Shown here in pieces: positions 51,486 through 55,583 of a stretch of 64,000 nt of DNA; the stretch's first letter is position 1; each line of letters starts with the position of its first letter. The notes beneath the pieces are model-generated. The model ran no database searches and was not told the origin of the DNA. It saw nothing but the letters and a program-made list of their open reading frames with translations. Made by a program: the position numbers and the translations under genes. This DNA comes from Natrinema salsiterrestre (GTDB lineage: Archaea; Halobacteriota; Halobacteria; Halobacteriales; Natrialbaceae), in assembly GCF_029502005.1 (NCBI RefSeq), contig NZ_JAMQOT010000006.1, positions 1 through 64,000 of the forward strand, read 5' to 3'.

Positions 51486-51525
51486 TTATTTAATACGTCA
51501 GATAGCACAGGACTTCCGCTCCTGT
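51486..51525 (+). promoter_or_regulatory. Promoter and palindrome upstream of the htr-opsin operon
   Basis: TTATTTAATA (51486-51495) is the strongest TATA-like element before the transducer gene. The inverted repeat ACAGGA-N7-TCCTGT (51507-51512, 51520-51525) straddles the expected start site, so it looks like an operator. If this promoter is used, the transcript has a leader of about 100 bases. A second, weaker TATA candidate, GATACATT near 51589, lies at leaderless distance from the GTG. Confidence 0.5.
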
Positions 51526-51615: not shown

Positions 51616-53922
51616 GTGACAGAGAAGACGTCGGGTAGCGTCGCGCTGCTCGAGCGATCGTGTGACAATATGGCACTCGAGGATATACTTCCAGATCGGT
51701 TCAGAGAAACGTACAGTGTAAAGATCGGTCTGATTTTCGTACTGGTCGTCGCCGTGACGGTCATCGTCGCCGCGCTCTTTTTCGGATACGCATCGGGGGC
51801 AGTCGGTCCGGCAGTGGAAGACCACTTCAGCGACCGGACGGACGACCGGAGCGACGTCGCGGCGAGTTGGCTCGAGACCAACGTCGAAACGGCGAACGGT
51901 CTCGCCGCGGACGCGACCGTCCGGTCGGGGACGGACGACGAGATCAGCCAGCGACTCGCGACGGCACAGTCCACCCGCGGCGATCGAGTTACCGAGATCC
52001 ACTATCTCGACGGGGACGGCGAGGTACTGGCGAGCAGTGCGGACGGCGCGGTCGGTCAGAACTTCTTCGACGAGGCGGGCGTCGACGGCGCTACCGACGG
52101 ACCCAGCGCCAGCCACGAGGCAGTGGCGAACGACGGTTCGGTGCTGTCGTTCGTTACGGCAGTGGAGGGCGACGACGAGCGATACGTCGCCGTCTCTGCG
52201 CCCACCGACGCGTTCGCGGCCACGCTCGAGACGGACGGACGAACCGTCGTCACGAACGGTGAGGGCGAGACCGTCGCGACGGTCGGCGAGGTCAGCGACG
52301 ACGTCGCGGTCGGCGATGACGCCGTTCTCGCCGCGGTGTCACCGACCGAAGGCGACGTCGTCACCGGCACCCCCGACGGCACCGACACCGAGTTCGCGGC
52401 CACGTCGGCGACGATCGACGTCGGCGGCGACACCCTGACGGTCACCACCTACGATACCGCAGCGACCGTCTACGGCCCACAGCGGGCCGCGACCTCGTCG
52501 CTGGTCGCGTTCGTGTTCGTCGTCGTCCTCCACATCGGACTCGTCGGCGTCGTCCTCGGCGGGAACACCTCGCTGTACCTCCGTCGTCTCGGCAGCAAAG
52601 CCGAGCGGATGGGCGAGGGCGACCTCGACGTCGATCTCGAGACAAATCGGGTCGACGAGGTCGGCATCCTCTACAACTCCTTCGCGTCGATGCGGGATTC
52701 CCTCCGGGAGACGCTGGCCGATCTCGAGGACCAGCGCGAACGCGCTCGCGAGGCCCAGCAGCGGACCGAAGAGCGCAATCGGGAACTCGAGGCCGAAGCC
52801 GAACGGTACAGCGAGGTGATGGCGGCGTGTGCCGACGGCGACCTCGAACAGCGCCTCGAGCCCGAGACGGACCACGAGGCGATGATGTCGATCGCCGAGG
52901 CGTTCAACGAGATGATCGACGATCTGGAAGACGCGGTCACACAGGTCAAGACGATCGCGGCGGACGTCGCCCGGACGAGTACCGAAGTGCAGACCAGTTC
53001 CAGCGAGATTCGACGCGCGAGCGAGGAAGTCAGCACGTCGGTCCAGGAGATTTCGGACGGGTCCTCCAAGCAGGCCGAGGACCTGTCGGTCGCGACGACG
53101 GAAGTCAAGGAGATGTCCGCGACCGTCGAGGAGGTCGCCGCCGCGACGAGTACCATCGCGGAACAGACCAGTCAGGTCGACGAGCTGGCGGCGGAGGGCC
53201 AGCGGGCGGCCGAGGAGACGACTGCCGAGATGCACGACGCCACCGACCAGACGGAAGCCGTCGCGGAGACGATCCGATCGCTGGACGAGGAGGCCGAACA
53301 GATCCAGGAGATCGTCGAGCTGATCGACGAGATCGCCGGCCAGACCAACATGCTCGCGTTGAACGCGGCCATCGAGTCCGCCCGGTCCGAAAGCGCCTCG
53401 AGCGAGAGCGGCGGCTTCCAGGCCGTCGCAGACGAGGTCAAGGAGCTCGCGGAACAGACCCAGGAGGCAGTCGAAGACGTCGAAATCATGATCGAATCGA
53501 TACAAGAGCGCGCGAACGAGAGTGCAACCCAGATCGAGGACGCCGAATCGACGATCGGGTCGGCGACCGGGCGGGTCGATTCCCTCTCGGACAGACTCGA
53601 TCGGATCGCGGCGGAGATCGAACAGGTGACCGCGGGCGTCGAGGAGATCGATCAGGCGACCGACGAACAGGCCAGCTCCGCCGAGGAGCTGGCGACGATC
53701 GTCCAGGACGTCGCGAGCGTCGCCAACGAGACGACGTCGCAGGCCCAGCAGGCCGCGGCGGCCGCCGAGGAGACGACCGCGACGATTACGGACGTCTCCG
53801 CCGAGGCGACGCGACTCGACGAGCGGGCGGCGGAGCTCGCGGACGCGGTCAACGAGTTCACCGTCTCGAGGGCGGACGACCCGACTGCCACCGCCGCGGG
53901 TAACGGAGGTGGATCCCGATGA
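51616..53922 (+). CDS. Haloarchaeal transducer (methyl-accepting protein) of the htr-opsin pair
   Basis: The protein has 768 residues from GTG 51616; ATG 51670 would remove 18 residues. Membrane helix 1 is at about 36-60 and helix 2 at about 293-317. Between them is a ~230-residue extracellular domain (WLETNVETANGLAADATV, HYLDGDGEVLASSADG) resembling ligand-binding Cache domains. A HAMP domain follows helix 2, then a second HAMP-like unit and the long coiled-coil signalling domain with the tip EIAGQTNMLALNAAIESARS near residue 572. It should control CheA. The stop codon overlaps the opsin-like gene (ATGA), as in htrII-sopII operons. Confidence 0.93.
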   Translation: MTEKTSGSVALLERSCDNMALEDILPDRFRETYSVKIGLIFVLVVAVTVIVAALFFGYASGAVGPAVEDHFSDRTDDRSDVAASWLETNVETANGLAADATVRSGTDDEISQRLATAQSTRGDRVTEIHYLDGDGEVLASSADGAVGQNFFDEAGVDGATDGPSASHEAVANDGSVLSFVTAVEGDDERYVAVSAPTDAFAATLETDGRTVVTNGEGETVATVGEVSDDVAVGDDAVLAAVSPTEGDVVTGTPDGTDTEFAATSATIDVGGDTLTVTTYDTAATVYGPQRAATSSLVAFVFVVVLHIGLVGVVLGGNTSLYLRRLGSKAERMGEGDLDVDLETNRVDEVGILYNSFASMRDSLRETLADLEDQRERAREAQQRTEERNRELEAEAERYSEVMAACADGDLEQRLEPETDHEAMMSIAEAFNEMIDDLEDAVTQVKTIAADVARTSTEVQTSSSEIRRASEEVSTSVQEISDGSSKQAEDLSVATTEVKEMSATVEEVAAATSTIAEQTSQVDELAAEGQRAAEETTAEMHDATDQTEAVAETIRSLDEEAEQIQEIVELIDEIAGQTNMLALNAAIESARSESASSESGGFQAVADEVKELAEQTQEAVEDVEIMIESIQERANESATQIEDAESTIGSATGRVDSLSDRLDRIAAEIEQVTAGVEEIDQATDEQASSAEELATIVQDVASVANETTSQAQQAAAAAEETTATITDVSAEATRLDERAAELADAVNEFTVSRADDPTATAAGNGGGSR

Positions 53923-54680
53923 TACCCGAACTGCGGATGTATCGGATCACGTTTTACGTGATGGCGGCGGCGACGGTTGGCTTCCTAGCATGGGTCGCCC
54001 GGTTTCCCAAGGGGAAGCGCCGGTACTACCTTCCGCTGCCGATCCTCTGTGGGATCCTGTCACTGGCCTACTTCGGCATGTCAGTGGGGTTCTCCGAGTT
54101 GACGACACCCACGGGGCAGCCGGTCCAAACGAGTCGGTACGTCGACTACTTCATTTCGGGGCCGATGATGGTCACCATCGCGGGCATCGTCGCCGGTGCA
54201 TCGCGCCGACAACTGGTCGGACTCAACGTCGTCATGATCAGTTGGACCGGGTCCATATTCGCCGGCTACTTCCTCACGGAGCCGGCAGTGTACGCGGCTA
54301 ATATCGCCAATTTCGTGTTGCTCGGCGTGCTCGCATACCTGTTGATCTGGCCGATCACGAGCCGGTCGGGAGAGCAGAGCGGCGAGCGCGTCCTGCTCTA
54401 CGGCAAGCTGCGAAACCTGCTGTTGATACTCTTCGGTGCCTACCTCGTCCTCGGCCTCCTATCGCGGCAAGGCTTCGGACTGCTCGACGCCTTCACCGGC
54501 ATCTTCACCGGGAGTTATCTCGACGCCCTCACCCGGGTCGGGTTCTGTACGCTGGTGCTCCGGGCGACCGACGCCACCGACCAGATCATCGAAAGCATCG
54601 AATCGGGCGGTGCAGACGACGGATCGGACGGCGTTACCCTCGAGAGGTCCGACGACTCCGCGGTCGATCCGGCCGATTGA
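53919..54680 (+). CDS. Sensory-rhodopsin-like opsin lacking the retinal-binding lysine
   Basis: This 253-residue protein has seven helices and aligns with sensory rhodopsin II throughout. Helix C has SRYVDYFISGPMM (Arg73, Asp76) and helix F has LLYGKLRNLLLILFGAYL. Helix G reads SYLDALTRVGF, where SRII has YLDLVTKVGF, so the Schiff-base lysine is Arg206 (codon CGG at 54534-54536). Pocket tryptophans of SRII also appear changed (Trp76 to Tyr77, Trp171 to Phe, Trp178 to Gly). Residues used for transducer coupling in SRII (Tyr174, Tyr199, Thr204) correspond to Tyr175, Tyr200 and Thr205 here. It probably cannot bind retinal covalently. Confidence 0.9.
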   Translation: MIPELRMYRITFYVMAAATVGFLAWVARFPKGKRRYYLPLPILCGILSLAYFGMSVGFSELTTPTGQPVQTSRYVDYFISGPMMVTIAGIVAGASRRQLVGLNVVMISWTGSIFAGYFLTEPAVYAANIANFVLLGVLAYLLIWPITSRSGEQSGERVLLYGKLRNLLLILFGAYLVLGLLSRQGFGLLDAFTGIFTGSYLDALTRVGFCTLVLRATDATDQIIESIESGGADDGSDGVTLERSDDSAVDPAD

Positions 54681-54821
54681 CGGCGGCTGCCGTCTCTCTT
54701 CGGGAGTTTCTCGAGTTGATTGCAGTGACGAATCGACGACCACCACCGAACCTAACAGATTACTCATATATTTATACACTGGCTCGTCCAACGAGTCGCT
54801 ACGGACTCGTTGCCTCCGAGG

Positions 54822-55583
54822 ATGAACACACACCGTACGGATCCGGTCCGCTGGCCGTTCGCGAACGGACCGTCGCTGCCCACACCGCACGTCGCCTCGA
54901 TGACCTGGCGCGACGGACTGTTCGCTCACTGGCCGGTCGACCCCGACGACGTTCGCCCGCACGTTCCCGGGCAGGTAAGCCTCGAGACTCGAGACGGCCG
55001 CGCCTGGCTGAGCGTGGTCCCGTTCGTGCTGACGGACGTCGGAGTGCGCGGGACGCCATCGATCGCGCGACTGGCCTTTCCCGAACTCAACGTCCGGACG
55101 TACGTCCGGTACCGCGGCGATCCGGGCCTGTTTTTCTTCAGTATCGACGTCGACAACTCGTTCGTCGCCGCGGCCGTCGATCGGACGACTCGGCTCCCCG
55201 TCTACCGTGCGAACATGCGCGTCGGAGCCACCGAAGCGAACCACGTGGCCTTCAAGAGTACGCGAGAGCAGCGAACGGGTGACGGTCCCGCGAGGTTCGC
55301 CGCGACCTACCGGCCGAACGGGGAGGTGTTCACTGCCGATCCGGACACGCTCGCTCACTGGCTGTCGGCTCGGCACCGGTTCTACGTCCCGGACGGCGAT
55401 GACATCCTGACCGGCGAGGTTTCGCACGATCCCTGGCCGCTTCAGCCGGCCGCGGCGACGATTCACGAAAACACGATGTTCGAAGCCAACGGCCTACCGA
55501 CGACGGCCGGCGAACCGATCCTGTATTACGTCGACGAACTGTCGATGACCGGCTCGGTTCCGCGCCGCCTACGCGGTGGATGA
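54822..55583 (+). CDS. DUF2071 (YqjF-like) family protein
   Basis: The protein has 253 residues and no membrane segments. Characteristic features are MTWRDGLFAHWPVDPDDVRPHVP near the N-terminus, WLSVVPFVLTDVGVRG, the LNVRTYVRYRGDPGLFFFS motif, and later ARFAATYRPNG and HWLSARHRFYV. The fold is related to acetoacetate decarboxylase, but no activity is established. TATATTTATAC at 54767-54777 lies about 50 bases before the ATG. It follows the opsin gene by 141 bases, apparently with its own promoter. Confidence 0.88.
   Translation: MNTHRTDPVRWPFANGPSLPTPHVASMTWRDGLFAHWPVDPDDVRPHVPGQVSLETRDGRAWLSVVPFVLTDVGVRGTPSIARLAFPELNVRTYVRYRGDPGLFFFSIDVDNSFVAAAVDRTTRLPVYRANMRVGATEANHVAFKSTREQRTGDGPARFAATYRPNGEVFTADPDTLAHWLSARHRFYVPDGDDILTGEVSHDPWPLQPAAATIHENTMFEANGLPTTAGEPILYYVDELSMTGSVPRRLRGG

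Follow-up and report, generated by a model that had tools for sequence, protein, structure and literature searches.

A lysine-less opsin-related protein encoded with an HtrII-like transducer in Natrinema salsiterrestre: a candidate retinal-independent receptor subunit

A gene for a seven-helix opsin homologue devoid of the retinal-binding lysine, here called orp, was found to overlap the end of a gene for an HtrII-like transducer (htr) in Natrinema salsiterrestre. The window analysed was the stretch of 64,000 nucleotides at positions 1 to 64,000 of contig NZ_JAMQOT010000006.1. We put at about one half the probability that the encoded protein is the retinal-independent membrane subunit at which a two-protein taxis receptor receives an input other than light. 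Such proteins are not new: Becker et al. (2016) collected 48 haloarchaeal opsin homologues without the lysine under the name 'opsin-related proteins' (ORPs), so that the gene of the window belongs to a published kind and the main hypothesis has already been published. According to that paper, many ORPs adjoin HAMP/MCP genes, their transcription was demonstrated, and two heterologously expressed ORPs displayed neither retinal absorption nor a peak at 480-580 nm after addition of retinal; sensing of non-light stimuli in taxis was proposed and an alternate chromophore was left open (PMC4915679).

The gene pair and its products

The orp product was recognised by the Pfam profile Bac_rhodopsin (PF01036; 75.3 bits, the cut-off being 24.6; E 6.5e-21), while no family was found for it in NCBIfam and PHROGs. 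Its closest relative of solved structure was sensory rhodopsin II of N. pharaonis (NpSRII; E 5e-19, about 28% identity). The AlphaFold2 model (pLDDT 85) displayed seven helices and matched best the SRII of the SRII/HtrII complex 5jje, with a TM-score of 0.90 by target length. In helix G, YLDALTRVGF was aligned with YLDLVTKVGF, which placed Arg206 at the position of K205, and at least two substitutions separate the lysine codons (AAA/AAG) from CGG. Three tryptophans of the retinal pocket were also exchanged (W76, W171 and W178 for Y77, F172 and G179, respectively). The residues R72, D75, Y174, Y199 and T204 were all encountered unchanged, as R73, D76, Y175, Y200 and T205. A preliminary description had reported the gene with its position and frame, the arginine, the lost tryptophans, the retained coupling residues and the overlap with htr, and all of this was confirmed here, the residues by alignment to NpSRII (Table 1).

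The transducer consists of TM1, an ectodomain, TM2, HAMP and an MCP signalling domain. Its ectodomain (roughly 220 residues) was modelled by AlphaFold2 (pLDDT 80) as a long helix followed by two beta modules, and the best Foldseek matches of this predicted model were the dCache domains of Tlp3, PctA and CtaA (best E 1.8e-8, for Tlp3; TM-scores by target of 0.5-0.7 for the top matches). These three are amino-acid chemoreceptors. In sequence searches with the ectodomain, Pfam returned sCache_3_2 only, at E 0.035 and 14.6 bits (below the cut-off of 28.4), and the PDB no match. Asn74 of NpHtrII presumably corresponds to His288 of htr (52531-52533). In the alignment this position was occupied by His in the Natrinema transducers and by Asn in those of Haloterrigena and a third genus.

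The gene order leuS-htr-orp-DUF2071 was kept in all orthologue contexts examined, and the htr orthologues found at the same place were 65-97% identical. Translation of htr and orp would be coupled through the ATGA overlap, and the TATA-like element upstream of htr is a possible promoter of the pair. Throughout the clade orp was followed by the DUF2071 gene (54810-55583 in the window), which may have a promoter of its own, as suggested by an A+T-rich, TATA-like stretch in the intervening DNA.

Table 1. Features of the htr-orp region, in positions of the window
Feature	Position	Strand	Basis or remark
TATA-like element TTATTTAATA	51486..51495	+	about 175 bp upstream of htr; read from the sequence
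htr, HtrII-like methyl-accepting transducer, 750 aa	51670..53922	+	Pfam HAMP 57 bits, MCPsignal 112.5 bits
htr extracellular domain, about residues 42-263	51793..52458	+	double-Cache-like predicted fold
TM2 of htr	52495..52563	+	transducer alignment
MCP signalling domain of htr	53182..53721	+	PF00015
ATGA, overlap of htr stop (TGA) and orp start, 4 bp	53919..53922	+	in all orthologues listed for overlap
orp, lysine-less seven-helix opsin-related protein	53919..54680	+	ATG start, 253 aa
Asp76 codon, counterpart of Schiff-base counterion D75	54144..54146	+	Asp or Glu in all 19 clade members
SRQGFGLLDAF (182-192), end of helix F and FG loop	54462..54494	+	most conserved stretch of the clade
Arg206 codon CGG, retinal-lysine (Schiff-base) position	54534..54536	+	alignment to NpSRII

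Orthologues and selection

A class-wide search of 391 genomes gathered 17 further orthologues with 55-85% identity, after which identity fell sharply to 40%. The hosts belong to Natrinema, Haloterrigena and a third genus, with N. ejinorense, N. gelatinilyticum and Haloterrigena salina among the named records; within Natrinema, orp was present in 15 of 29 genomes. Arginine occupied the Schiff-base site in 24 out of 24 orthologous sequences, namely the 19 tabulated (window and 18 others) and those of five more Natrinema genomes. It was specified by three synonymous codons among the 19 tabulated (14 CGG, three CGA and two CGC). The median pairwise dN/dS was 0.43, with 0.11-0.44 for the closest pairs and mostly 0.1-0.5 overall, and none of the orp orthologues displayed a frame break. 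The shared arginine and operon, the open frames and a dN/dS below 1 indicated that orp is old, intact and inherited along with its transducer.

The preliminary description had named lysine in close homologues, or homologues in decay, as observations that would count against it; neither was encountered, and htr adjoined orp in all contexts examined. A sequencing error or an isolated mutant was ruled out by the arginine in all 24 orthologues, and a pseudogene by the open frames together with the dN/dS values.

Place among haloarchaeal opsins

In a tree calculated without the lysine column (unrooted, with the root placed by midpoint), the lysine-less haloarchaeal opsins were separated from all sampled lysine opsins with support of 100/100. 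The window lineage formed a single clade (100/99) on the lysine-less side of this branch and is, by this position, an ORP lineage; all other ORPs were united, with weak support (85/83), in a group that excludes it. It shared with the ORPs of Becker et al. the type 1 opsin fold, the missing lysine, the separation from lysine opsins and the HAMP/MCP neighbour, as well as equivalents of Asp189 and Tyr199, the absence of brp from genomes with ORPs only, and an arginine like that of group A (PMC4915679). Haloterrigena sequences were included in their ORP tree, and the window lineage may therefore be among their 48 ORPs (PMC4915679).

The same source distinguishes a group A, mostly from Halorubrum, with Arg at the lysine site, W76 changed to D, Y174 to L and W178 to A, M108 and an unconserved R72, from a group B with Leu or another hydrophobic residue at the lysine site, Y174 changed to L and W178 to G (PMC4915679). 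Sequences with exactly these features were recovered among the haloarchaeal opsins, and seven Halorubrum ORPs displayed D, L, M and Q at positions 76, 174, 108 and 72. The window clade displayed Y, Y, W and R there in 19 out of 19 members, and Gly at 178. It thus had Arg at the lysine site and an adjacent HAMP/MCP gene in common with group A without matching the group at 76, 174, 108 or 72, and did not match group B either, having Arg and Tyr where that group has a hydrophobic residue and Leu. Retention of Tyr174, Thr204, Arg72 and an acid at 75 set the window lineage apart from both published groups, as did the ectodomain of its transducer.

In the best tree, the Halorubrum Arg type was placed among group B, apart from the window clade. 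A forced joint clade of both Arg types was not rejected (p-AU 0.107), so that one or two origins of the arginine are possible. As to the origin of the whole pair, for which descent from an SRII-HtrII photoreceptor had been suggested, the data support a conserved opsin that is under selection without its lysine and is accompanied by a conserved htr; they do not show direct descent, as the unrooted tree only splits lysine-less from lysine opsins.

Several features of other ORPs were recorded alongside. Of the 53 tabulated haloarchaeal ORPs, 51 had Gln (Gln184 in the window, codon 54468-54470) at the SRII position Pro183, within an S[RE]Q motif and regardless of what replaced the lysine. None of the tabulated lysine opsins had it, and this residue is a possible family signature of ORPs. 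His was found at the lysine site at five loci of Halorientalis and relatives and at one of Natronosalvus, a type not described in the accessible text of Becker et al. (PMC4915679). In the Halorientalis type the opsin gene precedes that of the transducer, which has an ectodomain. The Halobacteriales MAG QS_1_68_20 yielded an opsin on a long branch in which Val replaces the lysine, and no transducer match was found at its locus.

Conservation of the transducer side and of the retinal pocket

HtrII is bound by helices F and G of SRII, with contacts between Tyr199 and Asn74 and between Thr189 and Glu43/Ser62, and the signal is relayed by Tyr174 and Thr204 (PMC3274258). The equivalents of Tyr174 and Tyr199 were Tyr in 19 of 19 clade members, and that of Thr204 was Thr in 17 (Ala in two). 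Entropies in the window clade and in canonical SRII were 0.49 and 0.48 for helix F, 0.30 and 0.62 for the FG segment (six of its eight positions being invariant in the clade), and 0.64 and 0.63 for helix G. Helix C was relaxed, at 0.98 in the clade versus 0.49 in canonical SRII. Sixteen retinal-contact positions, picked from knowledge of bacteriorhodopsin and SRII structures, displayed strong conservation in SRII (P 0.0001), whereas in the window clade they did not stand out significantly from other transmembrane positions (P 0.10). Judging from the conserved F/FG/G side and the relaxed pocket and helix C, selection has preserved the transducer side but no longer the retinal pocket.

All 26 ORPs of the Arg type, but none of the 21 of the Leu/Phe/Val type, had an acidic residue at position 75 or 76, the Arg type comprising only two lineages. 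The pairing may represent a salt bridge in place of the protonated Schiff base with its counterion. The transducers beside ORPs of groups A and B (seven loci) had only about a dozen residues between TM1 and TM2 and no ectodomain.

Retinal supply and taxis machinery

The window genome encoded no opsin other than orp, and PF15461, the BCD/Brp retinal-forming dioxygenase, was without a match there, although the same search detected it in 28 of 44 relatives. Within the clade, PF15461 was present in the four genomes with canonical opsins and absent from the fourteen without. Synthesis of retinal by the host was therefore unsupported, and retinal-based light sensing appeared unlikely given that a canonical opsin is missing as well; the host may take up retinal from other organisms. 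CheA and archaellins were encoded in the window genome, which makes taxis plausible. Together, the sole opsin, the undetected BCD/Brp and the taxis genes make a retinal-independent taxis receptor subunit likely.

Two further carotenoid-related matches were encountered on contig C11 of the same genome. A 122-aa ORF at about 325672-325908 contained one lycopene cyclase domain (48 bits to CarR_dom_SF); a second domain of that kind was not found in the genome, and the ORF is perhaps a crtY remnant. A partial PF04240 (carotenoid synthesis) match lay at 714994-715290, in addition to a full-length copy.

Discussion

In the proposed mechanism, helices F and G of the ORP would bind TM1 and TM2 of the transducer in the manner of SRII and HtrII, and the permanent positive charge of Arg206 would pair with Asp76 (and Asp202) in place of the protonated Schiff base. 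A stimulus other than light, probably acting from the extracellular F-G side, would displace either helix F or the contact between Tyr175 and Thr205 and thereby rotate TM2; HAMP and CheA would then pass the signal on to the archaellum. We infer complex formation, the salt bridge and the role of the ORP as stimulus input from a body of comparative evidence: the arginine retained through synonymous codons, the low dN/dS and the invariant htr-orp order; the single opsin without PF15461 beside CheA and archaellins, with the signalling contacts Y199, T204 and Y174 kept; and the F/FG/G conservation, the Arg-acid pairing, the ectodomain-free transducers of groups A and B and the missing retinal absorption of two expressed ORPs (PMC4915679). 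Against this reading stand the dCache-like ectodomain of the transducer, the replacement of Asn74 by His in Natrinema, the pocket statistics, which revealed no conserved new ligand site, and an Arg-acid pairing drawn from two lineages.

The ectodomain in particular means that sensing need not fall to the ORP. The ORP could be a structural or gain-setting partner only, left from an ancestral dual photo- and chemoreceptor and still needed by the transmembrane bundle, while the dCache domain binds the stimulus. A precedent exists in HtrII of H. salinarum, which is both a phototransducer and a serine receptor (PMC3274258); like the transducer of the window it is linked to an opsin and has an extracellular region for ligand binding (predicted in our case), but its partner opsin binds retinal. 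Conservation on the transducer-binding helices rather than in the pocket would also be expected of such a partner. In groups A and B, however, ORPs are paired with transducers lacking an ectodomain, so that the ORP is likely the input in those relatives, and pure scaffolding would require neither an invariant Arg-acid pair nor the Tyr175/Thr205 relay. We consider a merely structural role a serious possibility, albeit one with the odds against it. Both non-retinal sensing and structural partnership had been put forward in the preliminary description; retinal-based sensing has become unlikely, and of these two we consider sensing by the ORP somewhat more probable.

The other explanations carried much less weight. 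Light might still be sensed through non-covalent retinal or another chromophore, as the intact relay and counterion would allow and as Becker et al. left open for an alternate chromophore, but the undetected BCD/Brp gene, the lost tryptophan pocket and the two expressed ORPs without a 480-580 nm peak (PMC4915679) render this very improbable. A membrane role independent of any chromophore, such as lipid scrambling, is very improbable: opsins can scramble phospholipids in the absence of both retinal and light (PMC12805836), but this would leave the strict pairing with htr and the conservation of helices F and G unexplained. That orp is a photoreceptor remnant in decay is hardly credible; lysine and retinal genes were indeed lost from the same genomes, but frames are unbroken, selection is purifying, and arginine and operon were kept across at least three genera.

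Among known systems, NpSRII-HtrII gave the best sequence and fold match and shares the gene pairing and the residues Y174, Y199, T204, R72 and D75, with HAMP and MCP domains on both opsin-linked transducers; it differs by its retinal lysine, the three pocket tryptophans and Asn74, which is His in the transducer of the window. Rh-noK and the freshwater FArhodopsins are type 1 opsins that also lack the lysine, with Arg instead in some of them, but belong to bacterial proteorhodopsin/xanthorhodopsin lineages and occur in tandem with a pump or flotillin, without a transducer (PMC10308929). More tentatively than the receptor-subunit reading itself, and rather against the odds, the window clade could be regarded as a third haloarchaeal ORP lineage, with SRII relay and counterion intact and Arg in place of the protonated Schiff base, that serves as a non-light chemical receptor derived from the switch of SRII and HtrII, in hosts without retinal synthesis.

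The retention of the SRII relay in a lysine-less ORP is a lineage-specific feature worth attention. With a sole opsin, no detected retinal-forming dioxygenase, the best-studied SRII-HtrII coupling residues, a stable two-gene operon and hosts in culturable genera, the lineage is a good test case, and the retained relay would allow opsin switching to be tested without a chromophore. If the pair does sense a non-light stimulus, a classical photoreceptor fold would have been reused as a chemoreceptor, as in GPCRs.
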